44,172 nucleotides of DNA from an uncultured bacterium (GTDB lineage Bacteria; Bacillota; Clostridia; Lachnospirales; Lachnospiraceae), in NCBI GenBank assembly GCA_945949875.1, contig CAMFGH010000012.1, positions 1 through 44,172 of the forward strand, written 5' to 3'. Each line of letters opens with the position of its first letter. Within the stretch, counting starts at the first letter, position 1. The notes under the pieces were generated by a model. The model worked only from the letters and a program-made list of their open reading frames with translations. It was not told where the DNA came from and did no database searches. The position numbers were made by a program, and so were the translations under genes. Below, in pieces: positions 27,883 through 44,172 of this stretch.

Positions 27883-28275
27883 TCAGGCCTCTCTGTTATA
27901 CAGAGCATTCAGCTTTTTCAGATTACCGTAGTAGGCTTTTAAGCTTTTCTTGGCCTTTGCATAGCGAAACGCATATACCGCATACGTAAGAAGGGCATAT
28001 GCCCCCATGATAATCAGGTAGTTTTTCGCTAAATTTTTGATATATTCTACTAAATCCATCTGATACAGGTTTTTCATAAAACTTTCCAGATCATACAGAA
28101 TGTAGGCAGCATAGATGATGATCAGGGCTATCGTCACACTGATCACCGCTTTCAGAACCTGAAATCCCAGATAATCACTTCGAAAATAGCTGGCAATGGC
28201 AACGTGGCGTTTTCCTTCCCCATCTTCGTATGCCTGCATTTTAGTCATTAAAATCACTTTTTCTTCATTAATCAT
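27883..28275 (-). CDS. Small membrane protein of unknown function
   Basis: 130 residues. Two hydrophobic segments lie at about 42-62 and 84-102, with a polar N-terminus and a basic Lys/Tyr-rich tail (YAKAKKSLKAYYGNLKKLN). No family was recognised. GAGAGG stands 8 bases before the ATG at 28275. Its stop is 12 bases before the next membrane protein, so they form a pair. It follows the tandem repeat array after the yvyF-like gene. Confidence 0.72.
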   Translation of the reverse strand: MINEEKVILMTKMQAYEDGEGKRHVAIASYFRSDYLGFQVLKAVISVTIALIIIYAAYILYDLESFMKNLYQMDLVEYIKNLAKNYLIIMGAYALLTYAVYAFRYAKAKKSLKAYYGNLKKLNALYNREA

Positions 28276-28303
28276 TGATCAGGCCTCTCCGCAATCTTTC
28301 TTC

Positions 28304-28378
28304 TCCTACAGGAGCAATCCCTACAGAATCAATCTCTACAGGATTATTTCCTACAAGATTATTTCCTACAGGAAACGC
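28304..28378 (-). repeat. 15-bp tandem array, five copies, with an in-frame stop codon in each
   Basis: Plus-strand units such as TCCTACAGGAGCAAT and TCCTACAAGATTATT repeat exactly every 15 bases from 28304. The complement of the yvyF-like stop (CTA) falls at 28306, 28321, 28336, 28351 and 28366. The last copy forms the true end of the gene, so its final codons (Leu-stop) are duplicated into the intergenic region. Confidence 0.88.
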
Positions 28379-28770
28379 ATTCTGTTTCCATCTCTTGTAG
28401 ACTTTCTGACAGGATCTTCCATGGTTTTTGCCGGAGTAATGGAGCTTTTCAAACCATTTGCCAGTTCTGCTTTACATTTATCACAATACCGCCCGGACTT
28501 AATCGTAGTTCCGCAAAGTTCGCATGCAATACCGATCATGCTGTCGTCTGCAAATTCCAGTCTTTCTTCACGAATCCACTGATAAATCTGCTGTACATCA
28601 ACATCACAGGCCTCTGCCACTTCCGGAATATTTGCTCCTTTATGTTCATGTACATATTTCTTAACGTTCTGAAAAACCTGCTCCATCTCATCTTTGCATG
28701 CAGGACATAAAACAGGGCCTAACACATAGTTAAATATTCTGCCGCATTTTTTACAGTTACGTACATTCAT
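28366..28770 (-). CDS. yvyF: YvyF-like flagellar-operon zinc-finger/HTH protein
   Basis: 134 residues. It begins with a zinc ribbon (CKKCGRIFNY, then CPAC), followed by a MerR-like helix-turn-helix segment (NIPEVAEACDVDVQQIYQWIREERL, about 47-72) and a second Cys set (CELCG, then CDKC). This matches the YvyF/TIGR03826 family, which sits between comFC and flgM in Bacillus. ATG 28770 is chosen because GGAGG lies 8 bases ahead. It overlaps the comFC end by 14 bases, so the two are coupled. flgM does not follow here. The 3' end continues into a 15-bp tandem array. Confidence 0.85.
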   Translation of the reverse strand: MNVRNCKKCGRIFNYVLGPVLCPACKDEMEQVFQNVKKYVHEHKGANIPEVAEACDVDVQQIYQWIREERLEFADDSMIGIACELCGTTIKSGRYCDKCKAELANGLKSSITPAKTMEDPVRKSTRDGNRMRFL

Positions 28771-29533
28771 TCTCTTGTCCTCCACTCAGTATCTCTTCCC
28801 GACCTATCGCTATGGATATATAGTATATTCTTTCCACTCCATGCTGTTTTAACACCTTGGCACAATGGTCAATTGTGCTGCCTGTTGTATAAATGTCATC
28901 AATAACTATAGTCGATTTACATTTTACATCATTTCGGCCTATTTTGAAAGCGTTTTTCAAATTATTTTGCCTTTGCCTGTCATCCAGCAGTTTTTGTGGA
29001 AGGGTTTTTTTCACCCGTTTCAGCAAATGGGTCTCTACCGGTATCCCCAGATAAAATCCGATTTCTTTCGCCAGCACTTCGGCCTGGTTGTATCCTCTTT
29101 GTGCCTTTCTGCTGCGATGGATCGGGACCGGCACCAGTGCATCCACCTCCCATTTTTCTATGACATCTTTTAAATGATATGCGATCTGCCTTCCATAAAA
29201 TCTGGCATATTCCCGTCTTCCCGCATATTTAAACCGGTACATAGAGGGCGCAATGCTCCGATATTCCAGCAGTGCTCTGCCTTTGTTATAGTAATGTGGT
29301 TTTTTCCGGCAATCCAGACAATACTCGTAAGCCGGGTCGTTGATATGTTTCCCGCAGATCAGACAGCGGGGTTTTTTTACATAGGATAATTTCGGAAGAC
29401 ATTCCGGACAGATGAGTCTGCCGGGTAACAGCAGCTCATCGCAGATAGGACATCTGGGCGGGTAGATAAGGTCCAAAGTTAAGGACCATATCTTACGCAC
29501 CCAGCGCCAGATTGTTTTTCTCTTTTTTCTCAT
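28757..29533 (-). CDS. comFC: ComFC-type phosphoribosyltransferase-like protein
   Basis: 258 residues. N-terminal zinc-binding Cys pairs are in CPICDELL, CPECL, CLICGK and CLDCRKK (about 28-75). The phosphoribosyltransferase fold follows: VDALVPVPIHRSRKAQRGYNQAE and the PRPP-loop-like VIDDIYTTGSTI (about 212-223). ComFC is linked to DNA uptake and DNA processing in competent Firmicutes. The 3' end overlaps the yvyF start. A weak purine-rich stretch precedes ATG 29533. comFA is not adjacent; recD2 lies 257 bases upstream, separated by a long inverted repeat. Confidence 0.92.
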   Translation of the reverse strand: MRKKRKTIWRWVRKIWSLTLDLIYPPRCPICDELLLPGRLICPECLPKLSYVKKPRCLICGKHINDPAYEYCLDCRKKPHYYNKGRALLEYRSIAPSMYRFKYAGRREYARFYGRQIAYHLKDVIEKWEVDALVPVPIHRSRKAQRGYNQAEVLAKEIGFYLGIPVETHLLKRVKKTLPQKLLDDRQRQNNLKNAFKIGRNDVKCKSTIVIDDIYTTGSTIDHCAKVLKQHGVERIYYISIAIGREEILSGGQENECT

Positions 29534-29579
29534 ATTTTTCTTTTTCTTTCTCTCTTTTGTGCCTGTTACGATGCTGGGC

Positions 29580-29790
29580 GCAAAAAATCATTTACAGCTT
29601 ATCGATGGGCAGAATACACAAGATAAGATTGTCAATATGACTTTGCGCTATGGAGATGAGACTCTAAAATCGTGGAAGCCATTGCTGAACACGATTTTTG
29701 TTCTTTGAGGCTCATCGGAGTGATTAGCGCAAGGTCATATCGACAACTTATCTTGCGTATTCTGCCCTTTCAAATTCAATGGTTTTTTGC
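29580..29790 (-). repeat. Long imperfect inverted repeat (giant hairpin) between recD2 and comFC
   Basis: The core arms run from GGGCAGAATAC at 29607 to its complement ending at 29767. They pair over most of their length, with small internal loops and a central loop near 29675-29688 (GAAGCCATTGCTGA region). GCAAAAAA at 29580-29587 and TTTTTTGC at 29783-29790 extend it outward with weaker pairing. Read as minus-strand RNA, two arm differences become G-U pairs and one is a mismatch; on the plus strand there are two mismatches and one wobble. It may be an RNA element or a MITE-like repeat. Confidence 0.8.
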
Positions 29791-32034
29791 TCACAGCATC
29801 TCCCGGATACGCATATCCAAAGAAGAATATCTCCTGTTTTCATTTACATTGTCAATCATATCCTGAACTGTCTGCGAAGACCCCAGTATTGTCACGCAGT
29901 CCCGGGCTCTGGTCACTGCAGTATACAGAAGATTCCGGTTAAACAGCATTTTCGGTCCCGACAAAAGCGGCATAACCACTGCCGGATACTCTGAGCCCTG
30001 GGATTTGTGTATGGTTACCGCGTATGCCAGTTCCAGTTCATCCAGTCCGGAAAACGGATATGTCACTCTTCGGTGTTCGTCAAATTCCACCACCAGGCTG
30101 CTGTCAAACTCACGGATTTCCCGCACGATTCCCACATCACCGTTAAACACGCCAAGCCCCCGGTCAATGGGAATATTATATCGGGACACCACTTCCCATT
30201 CCAGCTGATAATTGTTTTTGATCTGCATGACCTTATCCCCTTCCCGGAACAAGGTGCTTTCCCCCACCGCGTGTTCCTTTTTGGCCGGAGATGGAGGATT
30301 GATGTATTCCTGCAGAATCCGGTTCAGCGTCTCCGCTCCGAGACTGCCCTTCCGCATTGGCGTAAGTACCTGCACATCCATTGGCTCTGCCTGCACATAA
30401 CGGGGCAGTTTTTCCGTAATCAGCTGTACCATATGTTTATATATGACATTTACGTCATTTCTTTCCAGAAAGAAGAAATCCCTGCTTTTATTATCCAGAG
30501 GAATGTGTTCTCCACGATTGATATTATGGGCATTGACCACAATATCACTTTCTCCTGCCTGCCGGAAAATCCTCTGCAGGATCACCGTAGGGAAGGCATC
30601 ACTGGCGATCAGATCATGAAGCACCTGACCCGGCCCCACACTTGGAAGCTGGTCCATATCCCCTACCATGATCAGCCTGGTTCCCGGCGCAATGGCTTTT
30701 AAAAGGGCCTGGAACAGGAAAATATCCACCATGGACATTTCATCCACAATGACCACATCCGCTTCCAGGGGATTCTCACTGTTTCGTTCAAACCTGGCCG
30801 ACCTTCTGGAGGTGTCTTCTATTGCCGCTCCGTTGATCTCCAGCATGCGGTGAATGGTTCTGGCTTCGTATCCGGTGGCTTCTGTCATTCGCTTTGCAGC
30901 CCGGCCGGTGGGTGCTGCCAGAAGAATATCATTCCCTTCGCCCTCAAAGTAGTGGATGATGGTATTTATGGTAGTGGTTTTGCCGGTTCCCGGTCCTCCG
31001 GACAGGATAAAGACTCCATGGTTTAAGCTTTTCAGCACTGCTTCCCGCTGCAGCTCATCCAGCTCCATTCCCAGTTGCTGTTCCAAAGAACGGATTTTCT
31101 GTAGCTGGTACTTTTCTTCCGAAGGCAGAAGCCCCCTGTCATTTCCCACTGCATCGTTGAGATCCAGCAGCATTCGTGCACAGCTCATTTCTGCATAATA
31201 GTAGGTAGATGCATAAACAAGCCGGTCATTTTCTCCCGGTTTTATCACCACTTTCTGGTCCATCATCAGATTTTCCAGCTGACCTTCCAGAGAAGAAGGC
31301 GAAAGGCCCAGCAGTTCTGCTGCTTTTTTCAGAAGGATCTGTTCCGGCAGATAAATATGTCCCTCTCCGGAGGCAAGAAGCAGGATATAGAGGATTCCGC
31401 TCCGGATCCGGTAATCGGAATCGGTATGAATGCCTATTTTCCCTGCGATCTCATCCGCTATCTTAAAACCGATTCCGGAGATATCCTCCGCCAGTTTATA
31501 GGGGTTTTCCCGCATAACGCCATAAAGCCCCATTCCGTATGTATTGTATATCTTCACCGCCAGGGTATTGCTGATTCCGTACTGTTGCAAAAAGACCATC
31601 GCATCACGAAGGTCTTTCTTTTCTTCCATCTGAACTGCTATTTCCCTGGCTTTTCTTTCGGAAATGCCTTTGATCTCAGAAAGCCTTTCCGGTTCCTCCT
31701 CCATAATGCGGAATGTATCTTCTCCAAATTTTCTCACGATTCTGGCTGCCAGTGCCGGACCGATCCCCTTAATGGCACCGGAACCCAGATAGCGTTCCAT
31801 GGACAGGGCATCGTCCGGTGGGACCACTTGAAAAGATGCTACTTTAAACTGTCTTCCATAGAGCGCATGTTCTGTATATTCTCCGTGCATTTCCAGATTT
31901 TCGCCGGGCTCTGCATGACTCAGATTGCCGACGCAGGTCAGCTCTTCCCCATCCGTTATGACCACCATAACGGTATAGCCCGTTTCCCCACTCCGATATA
32001 TCACATGATCTATATAACCTTTTACGATTTCCAA
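29791..32034 (-). CDS. recD2: RecD2 ATP-dependent DNA helicase
   Basis: 747 residues. The N-terminal OB-like region begins MEIVKGYIDHVIYRSGETGYTV when the TTG at 32034 is used; GAGG (32043-32046) lies 8 bases ahead, so this is preferred over the longer reading from 32076. Helix-hairpin-helix segments (IKGIGPALAARIV, EIKGISERKAREI, ISGIGFKIADEIA) lie at about 85-200. Superfamily 1B helicase motifs are: Walker A GGPGTGKTTT (about 346-354), VDEMSMVD, IHKSQGSEYP and YTAVTRARD. It unwinds DNA 5' to 3' in repair without RecBC. The gene overlaps the end of the upstream GT-C-like gene by 13 bases. A giant inverted repeat follows its stop. Confidence 0.94.
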   Translation of the reverse strand: MEIVKGYIDHVIYRSGETGYTVMVVITDGEELTCVGNLSHAEPGENLEMHGEYTEHALYGRQFKVASFQVVPPDDALSMERYLGSGAIKGIGPALAARIVRKFGEDTFRIMEEEPERLSEIKGISERKAREIAVQMEEKKDLRDAMVFLQQYGISNTLAVKIYNTYGMGLYGVMRENPYKLAEDISGIGFKIADEIAGKIGIHTDSDYRIRSGILYILLLASGEGHIYLPEQILLKKAAELLGLSPSSLEGQLENLMMDQKVVIKPGENDRLVYASTYYYAEMSCARMLLDLNDAVGNDRGLLPSEEKYQLQKIRSLEQQLGMELDELQREAVLKSLNHGVFILSGGPGTGKTTTINTIIHYFEGEGNDILLAAPTGRAAKRMTEATGYEARTIHRMLEINGAAIEDTSRRSARFERNSENPLEADVVIVDEMSMVDIFLFQALLKAIAPGTRLIMVGDMDQLPSVGPGQVLHDLIASDAFPTVILQRIFRQAGESDIVVNAHNINRGEHIPLDNKSRDFFFLERNDVNVIYKHMVQLITEKLPRYVQAEPMDVQVLTPMRKGSLGAETLNRILQEYINPPSPAKKEHAVGESTLFREGDKVMQIKNNYQLEWEVVSRYNIPIDRGLGVFNGDVGIVREIREFDSSLVVEFDEHRRVTYPFSGLDELELAYAVTIHKSQGSEYPAVVMPLLSGPKMLFNRNLLYTAVTRARDCVTILGSSQTVQDMIDNVNENRRYSSLDMRIREML

Positions 32035-34154
32035 ATCAAATTCCTCACTGATAATACAACTGCTGCCACATAGCATACTACAATGGCGATGGCAGGCAGG
32101 ATAGGATTCTCATATAAAAACGTACCATAATCCAGAATGATCGCCATCTGGAGCACTGCCATAACCGGTATCCATTTCACATCCTTCAGGCATCCGAAAA
32201 TGAGTACAACCACAAAGGGATACAGCATCCATATCTCCGGCGTCCCCCACAAGAACAGTTTCTGCATGCACTGCATCATGGAATATCCGCAGAACATTCC
32301 AGGAAAAGAGACTAAAACTCCCGTCAGAACAACAATGGGAAGTCCGTTCCCCAGATTCAGCTCTTTTCGGTCTTTCTCCGTATGGCAGCATACAAAAAAT
32401 AATACGATAAAAATAAGGTAATGTCCCAGAAGTGCCCATGCAAATCCCAGCAGGATATAGGCCGCCATGTCATGGCCTTTTTTCTGGATTATAAACGCAA
32501 TCAGAAGCAGAGAAATCGCCAGACTGTCCAGATGCCCCCAGATCACACCATTTAAAAATACCGAGGGCAAAAACAGCATCAGCAGGTATGCGATCAGTCC
32601 TCTCTCCTGTTTATACCTTTCTCCACTCAGCACTTTGCAAACATGGGGCATCAACATCGCTGCCAGAATATCTCCGCCGATACATAGAATCTTCACCAGG
32701 AAAAACAAAGTTTTTTCTTGTAAAAAAGAAATATGCTCTATGCAGAATGTCAAAAACGACATAATTGTCATGTAGAATGTGGTGTGATGATTTCCTTCCA
32801 CCTCAATCAGATTAGGCAGATAATCCGGACTCATGCATTCTATCATCGGTTTTCTGACCCAGACAGCGATCACGGTAAGCAGAATATAGGCAATCAGGAA
32901 CAGATGCCGGTTCACAAAGTCGATCACTGTGTTCTCTACCTTTGTGGTGCGGTATATCACGTTCAGGTCTTCTCTGATGAAAAACAGTTCTCCCTCCGGT
33001 TCTCTCCAGGTTTTTACCAGGTGCCAGGTCATCATTCCCAGGCACAGCAGATAGGCAAAGGCGATCCACCTGTCGTCGATAATATGCCTGGCAAAGGTCA
33101 CCTGCAGATAAGCGATATAGCTTCCGGCACCGATGATAACCGCGTACAGCCCGCATCTTCGATCCAGAAATGCATATAAAATAGCGATCACTTCCAGAAG
33201 CATGCCATAGCGTTCATGCATGCATGGCAGAAAGCACATCATCACCAAAACACTCCAGTACAGGAAAAGCAGCCACTTTTTCTCGTCTGTTTTTTCTGTT
33301 CTGCGGATTACCATCACGGCAAATACGCCCAGTACCGCAATGATACCAAACTGAGCCACTCTGGAAAAAATATAGTATGGAGCTTCTCTGAAAAATGCCC
33401 AGAAATTTGGATAGAAGACATACAGATATGGATACCGCCCCAGCTGTCTCAGATAGACAGAAAACGGTACAAAAACAGAGCATCCTCCCAGGATCGCCGG
33501 TATGCATAATAGTTCCATCACCACCGGAACAATCAGAAAATGCAGCAGGGAAAAACGCCTGTTTTTCCAATAATAGATAACCAGCACAGGCAGAATCAAT
33601 ACTGCCTGCAGTTTAAAAGAAAACGCACAACCCAGAAGGATCATCGCCAGAACCGGCCTGTCCTTCAACAGCGCATAGATCATATAAAGCAAAAATGTGA
33701 CATAAATGAAATCGCACTGTCCCCAATACCCACCATTCAGAATAGCTGACGGATAAAGCAGCAGTGCACTGTATGCATAAACAAAAAAGCGGTTCTTTTT
33801 TTCACCGGATATGAAGTGACTGACAATAAGTCCTCCGGCTACCGCGCCCATGTACTCAAAGAAAATCGAAAAAAGCTTTACTTTGATAATGGTACGTCCC
33901 GGCAAATAGTTGAGCAGCCAAAGTACCGTAACATATGGCATATTATAATCGCCATCGTAGGTAGACAGGATGCTCACACCATATCCTGTTTTCATAGAAT
34001 CAGACCATGGAATCAGGCAGGTTTCAATATCTGCAGTAATGTGTTCTATTCCAAGCCACCGGATCCAGAAGGCCACCACACTGACCAGCAGAAATACACC
34101 TGCGCAGATATATTTATTTGTCTGTTCCCTTCCCAATTTCTGATTCTGTATCAT
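32022..34154 (-). CDS. Membrane protein with two GT-C-like halves in tandem
   Basis: 710 residues with around twenty membrane segments. The first half (about 1-380) is a paralogue of the protein at 16888-18081: HITADIETCLIPW (about 38-50), GGYWGQCDFIY (about 141-151), then CAFSFKLQAVLILPV and RRFSLLHFLIVP. The second half (about 410-710) repeats the plan with changed residues: MSPDYLPNLIEVEG, then FLPSVFLNGVIWGHLDSLA (WGHLD at about 539-543) and LGFAWALLGHYLIF. The second module may have lost or altered function. No named family is certain. A hairpin lies just before its start and recD2 overlaps its end. Confidence 0.72.
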   Translation of the reverse strand: MIQNQKLGREQTNKYICAGVFLLVSVVAFWIRWLGIEHITADIETCLIPWSDSMKTGYGVSILSTYDGDYNMPYVTVLWLLNYLPGRTIIKVKLFSIFFEYMGAVAGGLIVSHFISGEKKNRFFVYAYSALLLYPSAILNGGYWGQCDFIYVTFLLYMIYALLKDRPVLAMILLGCAFSFKLQAVLILPVLVIYYWKNRRFSLLHFLIVPVVMELLCIPAILGGCSVFVPFSVYLRQLGRYPYLYVFYPNFWAFFREAPYYIFSRVAQFGIIAVLGVFAVMVIRRTEKTDEKKWLLFLYWSVLVMMCFLPCMHERYGMLLEVIAILYAFLDRRCGLYAVIIGAGSYIAYLQVTFARHIIDDRWIAFAYLLCLGMMTWHLVKTWREPEGELFFIREDLNVIYRTTKVENTVIDFVNRHLFLIAYILLTVIAVWVRKPMIECMSPDYLPNLIEVEGNHHTTFYMTIMSFLTFCIEHISFLQEKTLFFLVKILCIGGDILAAMLMPHVCKVLSGERYKQERGLIAYLLMLFLPSVFLNGVIWGHLDSLAISLLLIAFIIQKKGHDMAAYILLGFAWALLGHYLIFIVLFFVCCHTEKDRKELNLGNGLPIVVLTGVLVSFPGMFCGYSMMQCMQKLFLWGTPEIWMLYPFVVVLIFGCLKDVKWIPVMAVLQMAIILDYGTFLYENPILPAIAIVVCYVAAVVLSVRNLIWKS

Positions 34155-34167
34155 TCTAAAACGTTTC

Positions 34168-34195
34168 CATTCCCCTGTTTATCGATCTGGGAATG
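34168..34195 (-). other. Hairpin just upstream of the double GT-C-like gene
   Basis: CATTCCC (34168-34174) pairs with GGGAATG (34189-34195) around a 14-base loop. On the minus strand it covers a GGGGAATGG stretch ahead of the ATG at 34154. It could be an end signal for the flagellar genes or affect translation of the next gene. Confidence 0.4.
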
Positions 34196-34215
34196 TTATA
34201 ACACCTTTTCCTGTA

Positions 34216-34581
34216 TTACTCTGTCCCGGGAATATCGTAGTTCCTTTTCATGGAATCATACAACTTCTGGGCAATTCCCAGGTTTCCGGATTCTGTGATT
34301 TTTGAAGCCATTTCCTGAACCAATCCATCTTTTATGAAATCCTGGGAGGTAGATATGGCAGAGGTGGAAGCCTCGCCCATGCCCATCAGATCCACGTTCT
34401 TCATCACTTCATCCATGACCATTTCTACCAGATATTCCTCAAACTGCTTGCAGGCATTCATCATCTCATCATCGGTAGCAGTCTTCTGATCCACACCGGA
34501 AATCTGATTCATTTTCGATGCAGCCTCTGTAGATGAAGTCAAATATTTTGTATAATTCGAAGATAATCCGCCAAGATCCAT
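34216..34581 (-). CDS. FlgJ-like rod-binding protein
   Basis: 121 residues. ACKQFEEYLVEMVMDEVMKNV (about 43-63) matches the rod-binding domain of FlgJ, and FIKDGLVQEMASKITESGNLGIAQKLYDSM follows, as in the family. The muramidase domain of long FlgJ is absent, as in many Firmicutes. It helps assembly of the flagellar rod. GGAGG lies 7 bases before the ATG. It follows flhP by 116 bases, part of which is a tandem array. It belongs to the mbl-flhO-flhP unit. Confidence 0.88.
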   Translation of the reverse strand: MDLGGLSSNYTKYLTSSTEAASKMNQISGVDQKTATDDEMMNACKQFEEYLVEMVMDEVMKNVDLMGMGEASTSAISTSQDFIKDGLVQEMASKITESGNLGIAQKLYDSMKRNYDIPGTE

Positions 34582-34639
34582 TTATGTACCTCCAAATTTA
34601 TCCTCTTTTTGTCGCTTTACCTGCCGGATATCCGGTCAC

Positions 34640-34712
34640 TTACTGTTTCAGCTGATTTATGCGTTAGATTACTGTTTCAGCTGATTTATATGTTAAATTA
34701 TTGTTTCAGCTG
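34640..34712 (-). repeat. 29-bp tandem array continuing from the flhP 3' end
   Basis: TTACTGTTTCAGCTG begins units at 34640 and 34669, and TTATTGTTTCAGCTG begins the last at 34698, which is the flhP stop codon. The period is 29 bases. The last codons of flhP (QLKQ-stop) are therefore copied twice into the intergenic region. Confidence 0.88.
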
Positions 34713-35516
34713 GTTTGCCTGCCCCATCATGGTATCGGTGGTTGTGATGGCTTTGGAATTCAGTTCGTAAGCTCTTTGTGCAACGATCAGATTTACCATT
34801 TCATCTGCCACCTGTACATTGGATGCTTCCAGATATCCCTGGCGAATCAGGCTTTTCTGAATACCGGTAGCTGTGGATTCATTGATAGCAGCACCACTGG
34901 CTGCTGTGACAGAATATAGGCTGTCTCCTTCTCTTTCCAGACCGGAAGGATTCCGGAACTGGTAGACACCGATTCTGGGACCTATTGGTTTCAAATTATT
35001 ATTAGCGTCCGGATAGCAGATTGCACCATCGGAATCAATTTCGATTCTGCTGGCCATATAGTTGCTGCCCAGCGAAATCGGTGCACCGGTGCTGCTAAGT
35101 ACCGGAAGTCCATCGGAGTTGGTAAGGGTAACCCCGCCGTTATTATTGATCGCCCAGACAAAACTACCGTTTCTGGTATAGTAAGTCTGTCCGTCTTCTC
35201 CTCTTACTGCAAATAATCCGTCACCCACAATTGCAAAGTCTGTGTCATTCTCTGTAGCAGTTAATTCTCCCTGCTCAAAAATGGACGTGATAGCTGCACT
35301 GCGGACACCCAGTCCCACCTGTGCACCTACCGGTTTAGTCTCTCCATTTGCAGAAGTTGTTTTCGTCTGAAGATTTTGATATAAAAGGGATTTAAACTGA
35401 TTCTGTTGTGATTTATATCCCGTTGTATTTACATTGGCCAGATTGTTGGCGATTGTATCCACATTGGTTTGCTGTGCCAGCATCCCGGATGCGGCGGACC
35501 ATAAACTTCTTACCAT
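34698..35516 (-). CDS. flhP: Flagellar hook-basal body protein FlhP (FlgG family)
   Basis: 272 residues, a typical distal-rod/hook-type protein. ANNLANVNTTGYK (about 23-35) is the conserved N-terminal helix motif. A central insertion (about 100-200) follows, and the C-terminal QGYLEASNVQVADEMVNLIVAQRAYELNSKAI matches the axial-protein end. GGGAGGG lies 6 bases before the ATG. Gene order with mbl and flhO matches B. subtilis. Its 3' end is repeated in the following spacer. Confidence 0.92.
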   Translation of the reverse strand: MVRSLWSAASGMLAQQTNVDTIANNLANVNTTGYKSQQNQFKSLLYQNLQTKTTSANGETKPVGAQVGLGVRSAAITSIFEQGELTATENDTDFAIVGDGLFAVRGEDGQTYYTRNGSFVWAINNNGGVTLTNSDGLPVLSSTGAPISLGSNYMASRIEIDSDGAICYPDANNNLKPIGPRIGVYQFRNPSGLEREGDSLYSVTAASGAAINESTATGIQKSLIRQGYLEASNVQVADEMVNLIVAQRAYELNSKAITTTDTMMGQANQLKQ

Positions 35517-35544
35517 GTCATTCCCTCCCTATGTACTACCCTTT

Positions 35545-35673
35545 CTACTGTGTTTCCTGCTTCTTCTGCCGATTCTGCTGTCTACTGTATTTCAGCTTTT
35601 CTGCCGATTCTGCTGTCTACTGTATTTCAGCTTTTCTGCCGATTCTGCTAACTACTGTATTTCAGCTTCTCTA
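35545..35673 (-). repeat. 35-bp tandem array after flhO
   Basis: CTGCCGATTCTGCTG starts units at 35566, 35601 and 35636 with a period of 35 bases; a partial copy of the CTACTGT segment lies at 35545. The CTA that is the complement of the flhO stop (TAG) occurs in each unit within CTACTG, and at the stop itself (35671-35673). The final step to the gene is 19 bases, so the gene end shares only the CTACTG part. Confidence 0.85.
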
Positions 35674-36453
35674 CTGCACCCTTCCAATCTGGGTTGCGGA
35701 AATCTGCAGGGAATCATCATATGCCTGTATCACTTTCTGATTTGCTTCATATGCTCTGGTAATCGTGATCATTTCGACCATTTCCGATACCGTCTCCACA
35801 TTGGAAGCCTCCAGAAATCCCTGATGTACCTGACAGTCCGGGGTCTTTCTCGTTGCCCCTTCTACCTCGGTATATAAATTCTCTCCGTACATTTCCAGAT
35901 AGTTATAATCTTCAAAATCATTAATCTGCAGCGTAGCCCTCAGGGTTCCATCCTGATATATTCTGCCCTGTCTGTCTATGGTGGTCTGCTGCGCTGTGGT
36001 ATTTAGCTGAATATGCTGTCCATTGGCTCCAAGAACAAAATCGCCATCCTGGGTCACCAGATAGCCATCCTGGGTCATGTTAAAATTACCATCTCTGGTA
36101 TACATGGTAGAAGTGTTACCTTCTTTGTCCTGAAATTCTATGGTAAAAAATCCTTCTCCGGAAAGTGCCAGGTCAAAGGTATTATCTGTGGTCTTAAAGG
36201 CTCCCTGTGAAAAATCTCTGTAGGTTTCTCCCAGTTTTACACCCAGGTTCATACTTCCGATGTGTTTTGCATCTACACCGGGGGTACTTTTGTCTTTGAT
36301 ACGGAATGCCAGAACATCACTGAATGCCTGATTCGTCACCCCTTCTTTTTTAAATCCGGTGGTATCTGTGTTCGCCAGATTGTTGGTGATGATGTCCATT
36401 CTTTTCTGCTCATTTCTCATGCCCGTGTAGGCAGTGTACAAACCTTTTACCAT
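35671..36453 (-). CDS. flhO: Flagellar hook-basal body protein FlhO (FlgG/FlgF family)
   Basis: 260 residues. The N-terminal TNNLANTDTTGFKKEG (about 23-38) and the C-terminal QGFLEASNVETVSEMVEMITITRAYEANQKVI mark a rod/hook axial protein. The middle (about 90-190) forms a variable domain. AGAGGG lies 8 bases ahead of the ATG. It lies 57 bases after mbl, in the Firmicute order mbl-flhO-flhP. It is exported by the flagellar type III system and built into the rod. Confidence 0.91.
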   Translation of the reverse strand: MVKGLYTAYTGMRNEQKRMDIITNNLANTDTTGFKKEGVTNQAFSDVLAFRIKDKSTPGVDAKHIGSMNLGVKLGETYRDFSQGAFKTTDNTFDLALSGEGFFTIEFQDKEGNTSTMYTRDGNFNMTQDGYLVTQDGDFVLGANGQHIQLNTTAQQTTIDRQGRIYQDGTLRATLQINDFEDYNYLEMYGENLYTEVEGATRKTPDCQVHQGFLEASNVETVSEMVEMITITRAYEANQKVIQAYDDSLQISATQIGRVQ

Positions 36454-36510
36454 CTGCTATACCCTCTACTGCTAACCTTCTGCGCTATTTTCTTTCCGGA
36501 TGTGGCGTTT

Positions 36511-37503
36511 CTATTCCTCTCTGTAACCTGCCAGGAATTCTACATAACGTCCGGTACCGATTGCTACTGCTGTCATAGGGTCTTCTGCTGTCATCGTGTT
36601 GATTCCTGTCTTATCACAGATCAGCTCTTCCAGTCCACGAAGCAGACTGCCGCCGCCGGTAAGAACGATTCCACGGTCCGCAATATCTGCAGCCAGCTCC
36701 GGTGGAGTTTTCTCAAGCACACCGTGAATGGCTTCTACGATCTGAGAAGTAGTCTCTTTCAGCGCTTCTTCTGTTTCTTCGGAAGAAACACGAATCGTAT
36801 TCGGCAGACCGGAAACCAGATTACGCCCTCTGACATCCATATAGTCCGGCTCTGCTCTATGAAAAGCAGACCCAATTTTAATTTTAATATCCTCTGCGGT
36901 TCTTTCACCAATCAGAAGATTATGTTTTTTACGCATATAACGAACAATTGCTTCATCAAAGTCATCACCGGCTATTTTTACGGAAGCACTTACTACGGTT
37001 CCGCCCAGAGAAATCACTGCAATATCTGATGTACCACCGCCGATATCTACGATCATATTTCCGCATGGTTTGGAAATGTCAATGCCTGCACCGATTGCTG
37101 CGGCAATAGGCTCTTCAATAATGGAAACCTCTCTGGCTCCTGCCTGATACGTAGCATCTTCTACCGCTTTCTTTTCTACCTCGGTTACACCACTTGGTAC
37201 GCAGACAGCAATTCTTGGTTTTCTCATGGTTCTTTTGCCAAGTGCTTTCTGAATGAAATATTTCATCATTTTTTCCGTTACAGTGTAATCGGAAATAACA
37301 CCCTGTCTAAGTGGTCTTACTGCCACGATATTACCGGGTGTTCTACCAAGCATCAATCTGGCATCCTCACCGATTGCCTTGATTTTGTTAGTGTCTCTAT
37401 CGAATGCTACTACGGAGGGCTCTTTTAAAACGACTCCTTTTCCTCTGATGTAAACCAGGATACTGGCAGTACCCAAATCGATTCCGATGTCTGTATATTG
37501 CAT
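36511..37503 (-). CDS. mbl: MreB-like actin homologue Mbl
   Basis: 330 residues of the MreB family. The phosphate-binding loops are GIDLGTASILVY (about 7-18), VDIGGGTSDIAVIS (about 157-170) and GIVLTGGGSLLRGLEEL (about 280-296). It forms membrane-bound filaments that guide side-wall synthesis. Mbl rather than MreB is suggested by linkage to flhO/flhP and by the absence of mreC/mreD. AAAGGGG lies 7 bases before the ATG. Confidence 0.9.
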   Translation of the reverse strand: MQYTDIGIDLGTASILVYIRGKGVVLKEPSVVAFDRDTNKIKAIGEDARLMLGRTPGNIVAVRPLRQGVISDYTVTEKMMKYFIQKALGKRTMRKPRIAVCVPSGVTEVEKKAVEDATYQAGAREVSIIEEPIAAAIGAGIDISKPCGNMIVDIGGGTSDIAVISLGGTVVSASVKIAGDDFDEAIVRYMRKKHNLLIGERTAEDIKIKIGSAFHRAEPDYMDVRGRNLVSGLPNTIRVSSEETEEALKETTSQIVEAIHGVLEKTPPELAADIADRGIVLTGGGSLLRGLEELICDKTGINTMTAEDPMTAVAIGTGRYVEFLAGYREE

Positions 37504-37641
37504 ATGTTTACCCCTTTCTGTGGTATCTATATCATGTTGATTATTCCCGTTTTATTCTGTTCTTAACCCGTTTAAGAGCAGAAAGCGCTATTTTCGAACA
37601 TACAAAATATTATAAACCACAAAAGAGGATTTTCAAAGGGG

Positions 37642-37705
37642 TTTTTTATAAAGTACAAAATTCAGTGGGTACATTTTTTATAAAGGAAAACTTCAGTAGG
37701 ATTTT
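37642..37705 (-). repeat. 32-bp direct repeat, two imperfect copies
   Basis: TTTTTTATAAAG begins copies at 37642 and 37674; both continue with a variant of AAA-TTCAGT-GG. It lies between a terminator and mbl. Similarity is moderate beyond the first 12 bases. Confidence 0.55.
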
Positions 37706-37713
37706 TAAAACAG

Positions 37714-37749
37714 AAAAGGACGCAAAATAAGATATCCCATTCTGCGTCC
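37714..37749 (-). terminator. Terminator of the secreted duplicated-domain protein gene
   Basis: GGACGCA (37718-37724) and TGCGTCC (37743-37749) form a 7-bp GC-rich stem, with further weak pairs inside. On the minus strand the hairpin is followed by TTTTCTGTTTT. Confidence 0.75.
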
Positions 37750-37859
37750 CTGCTCTTTTAACATCCTTGTAATGATATTATCGGATCAAGTTCTATAAAA
37801 CTTTATAGTATTTTATAACTATTCAAAGCCATTCATGTAGTTCTGAATAGTTACGTCAT

Positions 37860-38948
37860 TTAGAAAGTACCCTTAGCGCCCCAGAGAATCGCAAAGTTGC
37901 GGAACTGGTTGGTATCGAAGGAAACGGTACTATCATTGATATCAATATCCTTCATGATGGTTACAGAACCGTCTCCGTTCAGAATGGCTACTGCGTAGTC
38001 TGCATATACCGGATAGTCAAACGGAACCGTTACAGTCAGACGAAGCTTCTGGCTGGTCTGGTACACACGGTTATTGTGTCCATTTGTCAAAATCAGATCA
38101 AAGTAAGACCAGCTTCTGGCACCTGCTTTCAGCGCTGCAGCCTGAATAATTGCCTGAGCATCCGATCCGGGTACGGTATCTACGATTTCGATTTTCGTCT
38201 TTCCACCAACTACATTCTGTACGGTTGCTGCATCTGTTACCATACCAATAGAGTATACCTGGTGACAAGCTGCACCTGCAGATACGGTTGTTCCTACATA
38301 TTTTGTATAGTTGGAAAATGTAAGGTCATCAATTGCTGTCGGGCTTAAGAAACGATATGCGTTGAATGCGCCTTTTGGACCTGTGATCAAAGCCCATGTA
38401 TCAAAATAAGCAGAATCCACAGTGATGGTATCATTATTCATGCCATCCAGGTCTCCCAGAATCTCCAGATTTCCGTCTCGTTTGATGCTGATAAACGCAT
38501 AATCTTTTGTGGTATCGCAGCCACTTGGAAGTGTCATGGCAATTCGAAGTGGGCTGTTGGTTGCATCAATATCATTGTGCCAGCCATTCTTGTCAATATA
38601 TGCTTCCAGATCCATATCCAGAATCTTCACAACACTTGCACCCAGAGAAGCTGCTTTCTGGTTGAACATCACGCGGGCTTCATTTCCACACGCACTCTGT
38701 GTTACGTTCATTCGTACGCCCATGTTCAGTTCCATCTGTTCCCAGGAAAGACCTGCATATCCCTTGGTTGTATTTGGTGGTGTGCAAATGCTTACTTTCG
38801 CAATATCTTTTACACTGTTATAGGTATAGACTCTTGCTGAGTTCCAATTATCAAAAGCATTTACTTCCAGTTCTGCCTGGGGCATAAAAAAGACTCCGGC
38901 TGCCATCACGGTTGCCATAATTGTGGCAATCAGTTTTTTTGCTTTCAT
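37860..38948 (-). CDS. Secreted protein with a duplicated C-terminal-type domain
   Basis: 362 residues. A signal peptide (about 1-31) ends near VNA, so the mature protein probably starts FDNW. Two copies of a roughly 60-residue module lie at about 134-195 and 302-362: each starts with LR(I/L)-(T/V) and P, includes a central D(Y)AF or DYAV strand, a D-N-D-T/S-VS turn and ends F-ALI-GPKGAF or FAILWGAKGTF. No family was recognised. The ATG at 38948 follows GGGAGG by 6 bases; the longer reading starts with TTG. A single-gene unit, with a terminator at 37714-37749. It is likely released outside the cell. Confidence 0.75.
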   Translation of the reverse strand: MKAKKLIATIMATVMAAGVFFMPQAELEVNAFDNWNSARVYTYNSVKDIAKVSICTPPNTTKGYAGLSWEQMELNMGVRMNVTQSACGNEARVMFNQKAASLGASVVKILDMDLEAYIDKNGWHNDIDATNSPLRIAMTLPSGCDTTKDYAFISIKRDGNLEILGDLDGMNNDTITVDSAYFDTWALITGPKGAFNAYRFLSPTAIDDLTFSNYTKYVGTTVSAGAACHQVYSIGMVTDAATVQNVVGGKTKIEIVDTVPGSDAQAIIQAAALKAGARSWSYFDLILTNGHNNRVYQTSQKLRLTVTVPFDYPVYADYAVAILNGDGSVTIMKDIDINDSTVSFDTNQFRNFAILWGAKGTF

Positions 38949-39005
38949 AAAATACCTCCCGTAATTTATCTTTTTCAAAAATTTGCGACAATTTGTTTTA
39001 ACATT

Positions 39006-39016
39006 TTTGTCAAATA
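39006..39016 (+). promoter_or_regulatory. Possible 0A box upstream of the secreted-protein gene
   Basis: TTTGTCAAATA differs by one base from TTTGTCGAATA. It lies about 60 bases before the ATG at 38948, and a second site (TTGTCGCAA on the minus strand, 38983-38991) is nearby. Such short matches are common in AT-rich DNA. Confidence 0.25.
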
Positions 39017-39089
39017 TCTTTGCAAAACATCCTTGTCAGAACTAATTTACATAACTTGTTATTTCCAACATATCAAATCCGGAATACAA

Positions 39090-39125
39090 TTTCAAGATTT
39101 TTCCACTATTTTCAGGATTTTTCCA
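39090..39125 (-). repeat. 20-bp tandem duplication at the uvrA 3' end
   Basis: TTTCAGGATTTTTCCA (39110-39125), which holds the complement of the uvrA stop, recurs as TTTCAAGATTTTTCCA at 39090-39105, a 20-base step. The TCA complement of the stop is repeated in the spacer. Confidence 0.7.
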
Positions 39126-41964
39126 GCATTTTCTTAATATAGATTCCGGTATAGGATTTAGGATTTTCCGCTACTTCCTCCGGTGTGCCTTTGGCGATCA
39201 GGGTTCCGCCACCGTCGCCCCCTTCCGGTCCCATATCCAGAATATAGTCTGCAGTCTTGATCACATCAAGATTATGCTCGATCACCACTACGGTGTTCCC
39301 GCCATCTGCAAGCCGGTGCAGGATTTCGATTAATTTATGCACATCTGCAAAATGAAGTCCGGTGGTGGGTTCATCCAGAATATAAATGGTCTTACCGGTA
39401 CTACGTTTGGACAGTTCCGTAGCCAGCTTGATACGCTGGGCTTCCCCACCGGAAAGCTGTGTGGATGGCTGGCCCAGTTTTACATAGGAAAGTCCCACAT
39501 CATACATGGTTTCTATCTTCCGGTGAATGGACGGAACATTTTCAAAGAAATGCAGCGCTTCTTCCACCGTCATATCCAGCACATCATAAATACTTTTTCC
39601 TTTATATTTTACGTCCAATGTCTCTCTATTATAACGTTTTCCTCCACATACTTCACAAGGTACATATACGTCCGGAAGGAAATGCATTTCAATCTTAATA
39701 ATACCATCACCACTGCATGCTTCGCAGCGGCCGCCTTTTACATTAAAGCTGAAACGACCTTTCTTGTAGCCCTTCGCTTTGGCATCCGCAGTTGCTGCAA
39801 ACAGATCCCTTATCATGTCAAATACTCCGGTATAGGTAGCCGGATTGGATCTGGGCGTCCTTCCGATGGGAGACTGGTCGATGTCGATCACTTTATCCAG
39901 CTGCTCCAGACCAATGATATCGTCATGATCTCCTGCAATGGTTCTTGCACGGTTCAGTTCCTTTGCCAGATGCTTATATAAAATCTCATTTACCAGGGAA
40001 CTTTTTCCGGAGCCGGATACCCCGGTCACACAGGTCATGACTCCCAACGGAATATCCACATCAATATTTTTCAGATTGTTCTCTCTGGCACCTTTGACGG
40101 TAATAAATCCGGTAGGTTTCCTGCGGCTCTTCGGTACCGGAATCTTCAGTTTCCCACTCAGGTACTGCCCGGTAATGGACTCCGGAACCTTGCAGATTTC
40201 TTCTGCAGTACCCTGGGCAACCACTTCGCCGCCATGAGAGCCGGCCCCCGGACCGATATCCACAATATGGTCTGCAGCCCACATGGTATCTTCATCATGT
40301 TCCACCACGATCAATGTATTACCCATATCCTTCAGGTTCTTAAGGGTCTTTAACAGCTTATCGTTATCCCTCTGATGAAGCCCGATGCTTGGTTCATCCA
40401 GAATATAGCACACCCCTACCAGCCCTGACCCAATCTGGGTAGCCAGACGGATACGCTGGGCTTCTCCACCGGAAAGGGTTGATGTTGCTCTGGAAAGAGC
40501 CAGATAATCCAGCCCCACATCATTCAGGAATCCCACTCTGGCACGAATTTCTTTTAAAAGCTGTTTTCCAATCAGCTCCTGCTGTTTGGTAAGTGTCATG
40601 CCTTCCAGGAATTTTTTCAGGTCACCTAAGGACAGAGATGTAATCTCATAAATATTTTTATCACAGACCGTAACCGCCAGAGACTCCAGCTTCAGTCTTC
40701 TTCCCCCACATAATTTACATGGAGTGATCCGCATATATTCTTCATATTCTGCTTTCGATGCTTCCGAATAGGTCTCACGGTAACGCTGCTCCACATTTTT
40801 GATCAGCCCCGGAAAAGCAGTGGGATAAACCCCTTCTCCACGCTGCCCTTTATAATGCACGTTCACTTCTACCCCATTCGTTCCATAAATCAGCATATGA
40901 CGCACCTGTGGAGAGAGTTCCTCATAAGGGGTATCCAGGCTGAAATCAAATTTTTCCGCCAGAGCCCGAAGTAGTGCATTACTAAAGCTTCCTTTATCTT
41001 TGCTGGACTGCCAGCCCATGACCTGGATGGCTCCTTCATTCAGGCTCAGTTTTTCATCCGGGATCATCAGGCGGGGATCAAATTCCATCTTATAACCCAG
41101 ACCGGAACAGTCCGGGCAGGCACCGAAAGGATTATTGAAAGAGAAACTTCTTGGTTCGATTTCGCTGATACTGATTTCACAATCCGGACAGGCAAAATTC
41201 TGAGAAAAACTTAAGGTGTCTCCCCCAATCACATCCACTTCTGCCAGACCATCCGCCAATTCCAGAACACTTTCCAGGGAATCCGTCAGACGTTTCTCAA
41301 TCCCCTCCTTTATGACAAGTCTGTCAACTACCACTTCTATATTATGTTTAAAATTCTTTTCCAGTTTGATCTCTTCCGAAAGATCATACATATTTCCATC
41401 CACACGGACGCGGACATAACCGCTTCTGCGGGCGCGGTCCAGTACTTTTGCGTGCTCCCCTTTTCGTCCCCGGACAACCGGTGCCAGCAATTGTATCCTG
41501 GTTCCCTGTTCCATGGCCATGATATAATCCACCATTTCATCCACCGTGGTTTTATGGATTTCCCGTCCACATTTCGGACAGTGTGGAATCCCGATTCTCG
41601 CATACAGCAGACGGAAATAGTCGTAAATCTCCGTTACCGTTCCCACCGTGGAACGGGGATTTCGATTGGTGGATTTCTGATCGATGGAAATAGCCGGTGA
41701 CAGCCCTTCTATCTTTTCCACATTGGGTTTTTCCATCTGGCCTAAAAACATACGGGCATAAGAAGACAAGGACTCCATATATCTTCTCTGTCCCTCTGCA
41801 TATATGGTATCAAACGCCAGAGATGACTTCCCGGAACCTGACAGACCTGTCAGTACCACAAATTCATTTCTGGGAATATCCACATCGATCCCTTTCAAGT
41901 TATGTTCATTTGCACCGCGGATCTTTATATATTCTTTGGGGCGCATTTTTATATTTTCTGACAT
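39112..41964 (-). CDS. uvrA: Excinuclease ABC subunit A
   Basis: 950 residues, standard length. Two ABC-type ATP sites are present: [15 protein letters not shown] near the start and [12 protein letters not shown] near 640, with [12 protein letters not shown] and [12 protein letters not shown] signatures and zinc-finger Cys sets ([24 protein letters not shown]). It scans DNA for damage with UvrB. ATG 41964 is chosen: GAGAGG lies 5 bases ahead. A longer reading from 42051 adds a low-complexity Gln/Lys-rich stretch. It follows uvrB by 67 bases as one operon. Its last codons are duplicated in the following spacer. Confidence 0.97.
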
Positions 41965-42031
41965 GATTACCTCTCGTTCCTCTTTTCGTTTCTGATCATT
42001 CTTTTGTTCATGATCCTTATTTGATGATTGT

Positions 42032-44020
42032 TCATCTCCTGTTTTGCTCATATATCTTTTTCAATTCGATCATCCTGTCACGAAGTGTGGCTGCTGTTTC
42101 GAAATCCAGATCCGCTGCTGCCTTCTTCATTTTCTTTTGTACATCTGCAATCAGCTTCTCCAGTTCTTTTGAATCCATGGATTCCGGATCCTTTTCAAAC
42201 TTCACTTCTTCTGCTGCAATGGTCTTGGAAATGCTGATCAGATCCCGAACCGCTTTCTTAATGGTCTGGGGTGTGATTCCATGGGCTTCATTATACTCCT
42301 GCTGAAGTTTCCGTCTACGTCTTGTCTCATCAATCGCAGCCCGCATGGAATCCGTCATGGTATCTGCATACATCAAAACATGCCCTTCTGCGTTACGGGC
42401 AGCACGCCCGATGGTCTGAATCAAAGAAGTTTCTGAACGAAGGAATCCCTCCTTATCTGCATCCAGTATGGCTACCAGAGAAATTTCCGGAATATCCAGT
42501 CCTTCCCTCAGCAGGTTAATACCCACAAGCACATCAAACACATCCAAACGCATATCACGAATAATCTGCGCTCTTTCCAGTGTATCCACATCCGAGTGCA
42601 AATATTTTACCCTGACCCCTACTTCCTTTAAATAGTCGGTCAGGTCTTCTGCCATTCGTTTGGTTAACGTTGTTACAAGTACTTTATTATGTTTCTCAAC
42701 TTCTTTACGAATTTCAGAAAGCAGGTCGTCAATCTGGCCCTCCACCGGTCTGACAATCACTTCCGGATCAAGCAGTCCGGTGGGTCTGATGATCTGCTCG
42801 GTACGAAGCAGTTCATGCTCCTGTTCATATTTGGACGGAGTCGCTGAAACAAACAACATCTGGTCAATATGACTTTCAAATTCTCCGAAGTTCAGGGGCC
42901 TGTTATCCAGAGCCGACGGAAGCCGGAATCCATAATCCACCAGCGTTGTTTTCCTGGAACGGTCTCCTGAATACATGGCTCCAATCTGTGGAATGGTCAT
43001 ATGGGACTCATCTATGATAATCAGGAAATCATCACCGAAGAAATCCATCAGTGTATAGGGTGTGGCGCCTGCCGGCAATCCGTTCAAGTGTCTGGAATAA
43101 TTTTCAATACCGGAACAAAATCCTGTCTCACGGAGCATCTCAATATCAAAATTGGTACGTTCCGAAATGCGCTGAGCTTCCAGAAGCTTGTCTTCGCTCT
43201 TAAAAAACCGAATCCGTTCTTCCAGTTCTTTCTCTATGTTGACACAAGCCTCATTGATTTTTTCCTGAGAAACCACATAATGGGATGCCGGAAAGATCGC
43301 AATATGATTCAGGGATGTTTTCGGTGTTCCGGTAAGTGGATCCACCTCCATGATCCGATCGATCTCATCCCCAAAGAACTCAATCCGGATCAGGCTGTCT
43401 CCACCCTGGGCCGGATAAACCTCTACAGTATCTCCACGCACACGGAAGGTTCCCCTTTCCACATCCAGATCGTTTCGATTGTACTGGATCATGATCAGTT
43501 CCCGGATCACCTCATCCCGGTCCTTCTGCTGTCCGGGGCGAAGGGAAACGATCAGATCCTGATATTCATCCGGGCTTCCCAATCCATAGATGCAGGATAC
43601 AGAAGCCACTACTATCACATCTTTTCTTTCCGAAAGGGAGGCTGTGGCCGATAATCGAAGCTTATCAATTTCATCATTGATCGACGAATCTTTCGCAATA
43701 TAGGTATCGGAAGAAGGCACATAGGCTTCCGGCTGATAATAATCATAATAGGACACAAAATACTCTACCGCATTCTCCGGGAAGAACTCCTTGAATTCTC
43801 CATAGAGCTGCCCGGCCAGTGTTTTATTATGTGCTATGACCAGCGTCGGTTTGTTTAGTGCTGCAATAACATTCGCCATGGTAAAGGTCTTACCGGATCC
43901 GGTAACGCCCAATAGTGTCTCAAACTGGTTACCAGCTTTAAATCCGTCTACTAATTCTTTAATGGCCTGTGGCTGATCACCGGTGGGCTGATATTCGCTG
44001 TGTAATACGAATTTGTCCAT
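42032..44020 (-). CDS. uvrB: Excinuclease ABC subunit B
   Basis: 662 residues, full length. [15 protein letters not shown] is Walker A (about 36-50), [21 protein letters not shown] is the beta-hairpin used in damage checking (about 93-113), DESHMTIPQ is Walker B, and [10 protein letters not shown] is motif VI. The C-terminal UVR motif (from about 620) binds UvrC. GGGGAG lies 6 bases before the ATG. A 15-bp array occupies the region just upstream. Confidence 0.97.
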
Positions 44021-44045
44021 TCTTTTCTCCCCGTTTTATATATAT

Positions 44046-44172
44046 CTGCTTTTTATGTTCCTGCTTTTTATGTTCCTGTTTTTATATGTCCTGTTTTTTA
44101 TATTCCTGCTTTTTATGTTCCTGCTTTTTATGTTCCTGCTTTTTATGTTCCTGCTTTTTATGTTCCTGCTTT
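44046..44172 (-). repeat. 15-bp tandem array upstream of uvrB, running off the window
   Basis: CTGCTTTTTATGTTC repeats with period 15 from 44046 to the window edge, about eight and a half copies, of which copies three and four (76-105 of that kilobase) are degenerate. On the minus strand each unit includes a TAA, in phase from unit to unit. The gene before uvrB lies outside the window; by analogy with other loci here this may be its duplicated 3' end. Confidence 0.85.

Follow-up and report, generated by a model that had tools for sequence, protein, structure and literature searches.

We have investigated short tandem arrays at the 3' ends of genes in contig C12 (positions 1-44172, the 44,172-base stretch referred to as the window) of a Lachnospiraceae metagenome-assembled genome (MAG; G000; 2,760,650 bases in 163 contigs, 86.8% complete), which an initial annotation had interpreted as a special class of duplicated gene ends that carry the stop codon. 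Our data are best explained, with a probability of about 0.75, by short tandem duplications having become more frequent throughout the genome, in which case the arrays at stop codons would represent the harmless fringe of a load that intergenic DNA carries in general. This reading builds on properties that are directly observed, namely the load itself, its confinement, within the set of genomes sampled, to this lineage, a filter on the reading frame inside genes, the avoidance of start codons and a coverage of stop codons that equals the one of intergenic bases. The arrays described initially are thus real, but their description was too narrow, and little is left of the class proposed for them. 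The finding that stands is an unusual load of short tandem arrays throughout the genome of this lineage.

The distribution of arrays was analyzed in 61 stretches of the genome comprising 1,233,671 bases, in which 975 genes were called by an in-house dicodon caller. Arrays were counted if detected by Tandem Repeats Finder (TRF) with a score of at least 50 and a period of 9-100 bases, whereas a first-pass scan had used a score of 45 and a period of 7. With a training set of no more than 50 kb from E. coli, the gene caller returned 30 predictions, of which 29 match among 47 listed stops and the 30th is the annotated elfC stop, reflecting a high precision and low recall; looser settings left the conclusions unchanged. 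The sample contains 260 arrays, with 103 located in genes, 109 between genes, 42 over a stop, five over a start and one elsewhere, compared to 204, 32, 9.8 and 10 for the first four classes, and 3.5 spanning both stop and start, expected from 1000 rounds of random placement. The number of stop overlaps was reached in none of the 1000 shuffles, and the excess at stops is real, as is equally the one in intergenic regions. Since 38 of the 42 stop-overlapping arrays are found outside the window, the statement that genes beyond the initially described region do not clearly show such arrays holds for the remainder of the window but not for the genome.

To relate these numbers to the available sequence, coverage was computed after removal of nine arrays belonging to a dispersed 20-bp element described below, which were also omitted from the main null model. 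Of 937 stops, 38 are covered by an array (4.06%), as are five of 933 starts (0.54%); at the level of bases, coverage amounts to 4.71% in intergenic and 0.76% in coding sequence. The coverage of stops and intergenic bases is thus equal within error (P = 0.40), which argues against a special class of duplicated 3' ends by the very comparison that had been named as its refuting test, while the low coverage of starts indicates a strong avoidance (P = 1e-13). In a conditional null model, each array was treated as a tandem duplication free to occupy any position within the gap where it is found, for gaps of up to 400 bp, with starts and a leader of 20 nt being protected, the latter chosen by us as a stand-in for the Shine-Dalgarno region. 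We find 29 stop overlaps compared to 27.5 expected (P = 0.36, n=86), 31 compared to 29.5 with looser gene calls (n=93) and 27 compared to 27.0 if the protected leader is extended to 25 nt. The suggested check against shuffled positions thus places stops above random expectation (42 vs 9.8), but not clearly so once coding interiors, starts and a leader of about 20 nt are avoided.

Several results weigh against our interpretation and make a modest extra preference for 3' ends possible. For gaps of up to 400 bp, 33 stop overlaps compare to 19.1 expected if starts are left unprotected and to 25.1 (P = 0.015) if they are protected without leader. Among high-scoring neighbours only (both over 40), there are 18 overlaps compared to 14.1 (P = 0.076) with a protected leader of 20 nt and 19 compared to 14.2 (P = 0.039) with 15 nt. 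For gaps of up to 1000 bp the corresponding numbers are 34 and 28.8 (P = 0.082) with 20 nt, 35 and 28.0 (P = 0.030) with 15 nt, and 36 and 29.2 (P = 0.038) with 20 nt if the 20-bp family is still included. Moreover, coverage peaks at about 10% in a region 20-60 nt downstream of stops and amounts to about 3% at 100-300 nt. To these points add that no repair gene was found to be missing among the candidates sought by presence in the genome, and that a residual similarity between unit sequences implies that a local origin may fail for some arrays.

An overrepresentation at gene ends would be expected if a site-directed process favoured 3' ends, for example by duplication at sites of transcription termination or of conflicts between transcription and replication, on top of a general load. 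Such a process would account for the excess obtained without protected leader, for the 21 overlaps compared to 10.1 expected among high-scoring neighbours with unprotected starts, part of which persists with 20 nt protected, for the peak past stops, and for a local cluster of stop arrays within 16 kb (P = 0.0007, uncorrected). The cluster in the window as a whole is mild, with a probability of 0.028 to find at least four of its 29 stops covered, uncorrected for the choice of the window. However, no excess is left in the main set once starts and 20-25 nt are protected, and equally with looser gene calls. In addition, the density of arrays inside genes, per base sampled, exceeds that in the genus 3.6-fold, and the rise is thus not confined to gene ends. 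We consequently consider a site-directed process unlikely and find no clear sign that stop codons are preferred targets.

A general process of duplication is also reflected in the properties of the arrays. Their periods range from 10 to 84 bp, and the medians of period (19.5-20) and copy number (2.7-2.9) are alike for arrays in genes, at stops and between genes. In contrast, the period is divisible by three in 101 of 104 arrays in coding sequences (CDS), but only in 11 of the 42 stop arrays and in 35 of 110 intergenic ones. The equal medians combined with the frame filter in genes point to a single duplication process followed by purifying selection on the reading frame. We thus propose that the lineage underwent a genome-wide increase in short tandem duplications, which most likely arise by replication slippage or template switching, with most arrays being copied from local sequence. 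Purifying selection would then sort these duplications, so that inside genes almost only frame-keeping units survive, that very few arrays persist over starts and the leader just preceding them, and that intergenic and presumably neutral stop-spanning arrays are tolerated. The latter would escape removal because the first copy in most cases still provides the proper end of the gene. In line with this view, the gene end lies in the first TRF copy in 32 of the 42 stop arrays, in the second in eight, with the stop being partly inside in two, and most duplications have thus probably left the protein untouched, whereas a few may alter its C-terminus. The independent slippage at gene ends that had been suggested initially is consistent with these data. 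Within genes, the 104 arrays are found as in-frame repeats, as for example at L007:7324-7521, L005:18800-18898 and L006:871-988.

For a comparison with related organisms, we have used samples of eight genomes of the same genus (768,713 bases) and 70 loci of named relatives, mostly from Lachnospiraceae with some titled otherwise. The two sets overlap slightly, with L023 apparently being identical to G006:C13 (both 105,271 bases), and their stretches were picked either according to contig number or for their position near the flagellar locus, and are thus non-random. As the comparison of gaps takes only arrays located between two called genes (139 of 260), it contains 40 instead of 42 stop overlaps; L187 (G014) and L230 and L231 (G016) were left out. 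Arrays are found in 123 of 914 gaps in the genome under study, compared to nine of 551 in the genus (13.5% vs 1.6%, P = 3e-17) and 21 of 687 in the loci of named relatives. Stops are covered in one of 572 cases in the genus and three of 721 in the named relatives, and the fraction of intergenic bases in arrays is 4.71% compared to 0.55% in the genus. An unsupported class of selected 3'-end arrays is hence replaced by a measurable one, with intergenic arrays at about 8-9 times the level of the genus. Other genomes of the same family contain arrays in one of 39 (G022), two of 38 (G012), none of 14 (G016), none of six (G017), none of 13 (G019) and one of 12 gaps (G010). In ten loci of other bacteria (L093-L102) the share is higher with five of 59, a value that is unreliable because only 51% of their bases were called coding, with 7.1 arrays per 100 kb compared to 21.1 in our genome, and a 50-kb stretch of E. 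coli contains a single array.

The same contrast is found at individual genes. At the ends of yvyF, flhP, flhO and uvrA in relatives (13-14 per gene, about 137 nt past the stop), no such array was detected by eye. The gap between flhO and flhP, which spans 154 nt in G000, amounts to 14 nt in G002, the closest genome of the genus as judged by its FlgG-like protein (80%). The latter is of similar size but contains an array in only one of 66 gaps, and genome size thus does not explain the load. Among the relatives sampled, the load is private to the lineage of G000. Among the titles and openings of abstracts surveyed, none describes a comparable load for a chromosome of the Lachnospiraceae, which does not prove that such a report is lacking. 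Within the genome, co-directional gaps containing arrays have a median length of 171 bases (99 gaps) compared to 84 for all 805.

The fragmentation of a MAG of 163 contigs and 86.8% completeness could raise the suspicion of an assembly artefact, and weak selection could have let ordinary minisatellites build up by drift at an unchanged mutation rate. We consider both improbable. The copies differ from each other, with median matches of 82-85.5% across CDS, stop and intergenic classes, which would hardly be a product of assembly errors, while the sharp frame filter and the avoidance of starts indicate that selection is effective. In addition, drift and artefact are at odds with the sparse arrays in the similarly sized G002. 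The match percentages of arrays extend from the 60-70 bin up to 100%, which suggests that the process was sustained.

With respect to the cause of the proposed genome-wide rise, we tentatively envisage, at slightly less than even odds, a chromosome acting as sustained mutator for tandem duplications, in which altered replication or repair would have generated independent arrays everywhere, longer gaps, reshaped C-termini and protein repeats. Such a chromosome would represent the cellular equivalent of the archaeal Borg elements discussed below. The responsible change would be neither PolB nor the plain loss of one of the repair genes identified below. PolB (PF00136) gave no match in G000 or in the eight other genomes of the genus, and Ku none in G000 and in seven of the eight. 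Y-family polymerases are represented by two matches in G000 and by one to three in other members of the genus. The PolA 5'-nuclease domain, the MutS_V family, SbcD, RecJ and the ExoVII large subunit were all identified above cut-off in G000, and the plain loss of the PolA 5'-nuclease, a MutS family protein, SbcD, RecJ or ExoVII is thus rejected. The PolA frame is partial and can be aligned well with its counterparts from three relatives. As a possible cause we thus consider a protein that is changed rather than missing, or a gene located in the absent part of the MAG. If a replication or repair protein was changed, the species and its array-poor sisters would offer a natural experiment on the suppression of tandem duplications, and on whether the repeats of archaeal Borg elements discussed below need a Borg-encoded enzyme. 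As a separate observation, the frame of the ExoVII large subunit (G000:C6:16076-16882) encompasses 513 residues compared to 402-419 in seven of the eight other members of the genus and 793 in G008.

Tandem stop codons are known as back-up signals directly following a gene, and the initial annotation had raised the possibility that repeated stops are selected, which would provide termination against readthrough or frameshifts. Arrays in our genome resemble this arrangement in placing extra stops just past the gene. The arrays of yvyF, flhP and uvrA retain the stop triplet in every full later copy, and 45 of 62 later triplets still encode some stop (32 arrays). However, there is no sign of selection on these repeated stops. 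In the 32 of 42 stop arrays with few insertions or deletions, later-copy stop triplets are exactly conserved at a frequency of 0.570 compared to 0.629 for other triplets of these arrays (Wilcoxon P = 0.58). Back-up termination would also leave unexplained why the coverage of stops does not exceed the one of intergenic bases, and why only a single stop is covered in the sample of the genus. We thus regard such selection as very unlikely. A role as feature of the mRNA 3' end, which had equally been proposed, finds no support either, since folding with a z-score below -2 relative to mononucleotide shuffles was observed for nine of 42 stop arrays and for 18 of 120 sampled array-free gene ends, and a search of the region 28000-44172 against Rfam found no family at its gathering score. 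A function as RNA structure or terminator was thus rejected.

We have also considered whether the arrays could originate from one or a few dispersed mobile repeats. This applies to the 20-bp family, which accounts for 11 of 156 non-CDS arrays by clustering and nine by filter, none of them in the window. Its iteron GGACAAAAGGGCTATYCTRT occurs in inverted pairs separated by tens to hundreds of bases with outer ends resembling GTGGGGACGTTTCTTTTGTCC, and its core has 36 matches with up to one mismatch in G000 (two for a reversed control pattern), compared to 0-3 in each of 40 other genomes. The elements are distributed over contigs C3, C4, C8, C15, C19, C22 and others, with examples at about L013:12199-12729, L126:18560-18945 and L010:772-1067, and an open frame of 338 residues matching Y1_Tnp (C22:9469-9801) is located between iteron copies at C22:8962 and C22:12213. 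Repetitive extragenic palindromic (REP) elements and their associated RAYT proteins combine short repeats with inverted ends and a Y1-type transposase. Both features are shared by the iteron family, which probably represents an element of the REP or miniature inverted-repeat transposable element (MITE) type, although this likeness concerns only its 9-11 arrays. A looser second family with units of 52-53 bp and words such as TTTCACATGA and CATGGG in common is found at L003:287-459, L003:507-619, L009:14460-14607 and L118:9759.

The remaining 145 non-CDS units show a weak residual similarity, with 43 of 10,440 pairs scoring at least 15 compared to 20-22 in dinucleotide shuffles, and 17 scoring at least 17 compared to 3-4. 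The excess includes the 52-53-bp family, the array next to uvrB, which is present on two contigs and contributes one pair, and many A/G-rich units. Short words shared between A/G-rich units account for most of the excess pairs that remain. Among the 25 top hexamers listed, those found in at least four units all originate from the 20-bp family. A mobile origin of the arrays in general is thus highly improbable, and the initial claim that they are not one mobile repeat holds for most of them, with the exception of the 20-bp family and some residual similarity. Most, though not all, arrays instead look locally made, as judged from their unit sequences. The 45 perfect two-copy repeats show a mean end match of 5.9 bases, a value without computed chance expectation; most of them lie within larger eroded arrays, with five of 38 with a period of at least 12 being isolated.

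Short tandem arrays between genes are familiar from bacterial variable number tandem repeats and minisatellites, including the mycobacterial interspersed repetitive units (MIRUs), which constitute a single unit family. The arrays described here are similarly short and intergenic, but one gap mostly differs from the next in its unit, and the load extends over the whole genome. A bacterial genome with numerous direct repeats between genes has also been described for Beggiatoaceae, where a common TAACTGA heptamer is mostly placed just upstream of starts (PMC4679880), whereas in G000 units mostly differ and starts are avoided.

The closest parallel is provided by the tandem repeats of archaeal Borg elements. 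In these elements, head-to-tail arrays are pervasive in genes and between genes, with units divisible by three in open reading frames (ORFs) but mostly not in intergenic regions (14-38%). These units are virtually all unique within a genome, perfectly repeated and strongly enriched in A, and they are carried by a linear extrachromosomal element encoding PolB while being nearly absent from the host (PMC9879509). G000 shares the pervasive arrays in genes and between genes (260 in 1.23 Mb), the frame-divisible units in genes (101/104) and mostly non-divisible intergenic units (35/110), the near-absence of arrays from relatives (9/551 gaps in the genus) in place of the host, and arrays that can end contigs. 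With respect to uniqueness, 11 of 156 non-CDS units belong to one family, besides the 52-53-bp family and the weak similarity among the other 145. Further differences concern the copies, which in G000 are mostly imperfect (median matches of 82-85.5%), and the enrichment in A, which is slight (37.6% in units of stop arrays and 39.5% in intergenic arrays compared to 36.7% in array-free gaps). Finally, the arrays of G000 are chromosomal and located beside housekeeping genes, and no B-family polymerase was found.

In the window, TRF recovered all five arrays named initially and reproduced their unit lengths of 15, 29, 35, 20 and 15 bases. The first (28304-28373, minus strand, 4.7 copies of 15 bases) spans the stop (28366-28368) of a yvyF-like ORF of 139 residues (28366-28785, minus strand), which matches TIGR03826 with 111.1 bits, below the cut-off of 124.15; its TAG recurs in frame in all four later copies. 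The second (34640-34716, minus strand, 2.7 copies of 29 bases) spans the stop of a FlgG-like flagellar gene of 272 residues termed flhP (34698-35516, minus strand), and its TAA recurs in later copies. In NCBIfam, this gene is assigned to the FlgE/F/G subfamily (220.6, cut-off 70.25) with FlgG as best match just below cut-off (TIGR02488, 248.7 vs 252.75). The gene termed flhO (35671-36453, minus strand, 260 residues) belongs to the FlgF family (NCBIfam, 191.8, cut-off 178.5). Its array (35544-35672, minus strand, 3.6 copies of 35 bases) begins, as drawn by TRF, inside the stop codon, of which it includes only the final two bases, with TAG recurring in later copies. The fourth array (39090-39133, minus strand, 2.2 copies of 20 bases) spans the last codons and stop of uvrA (39112-42051, minus strand, 979 residues; NF001503, above cut-off). 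An array over the stop thus applies to yvyF, flhP and uvrA, and in the case of flhO only to the two final stop bases.

The fifth array (44046-44172, minus strand, 8.5 copies of 15 bases) is located 25 bp upstream of the start of uvrB (42032-44020, minus strand, 662 residues; NF003673, above cut-off) and runs to the end of the contig. The relatives closest to this UvrB are mostly titled Lachnospiraceae. The fifth array had been assigned to the 3' end of the preceding gene, which is probably incorrect. The array matches the beginning of contig C60 (C60:1-70) at 94%, and C60 may thus adjoin C12, a placement for which this common array is the sole basis. In this case the next gene end on the same strand would be found about 0.94 kb away, near base 993 of C60, and the fifth array would be intergenic, within a gap of about 1 kb with a total of seven arrays. 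We thus regard it as probably intergenic rather than a duplicated gene end. The gene that follows, presumed to be Mfd-like from inspection by eye, contains a 35-bp array over its stop, with the gene end falling in the second copy. The beginning of C60 (L003:1-1038) is intergenic over about 1 kb and comprises seven arrays with periods of 12-52, of which the last is this 35-bp stop array. Within the flagellar and repair stretch of the window, a gene encoding a RecD2 helicase is located at 29791-32076.

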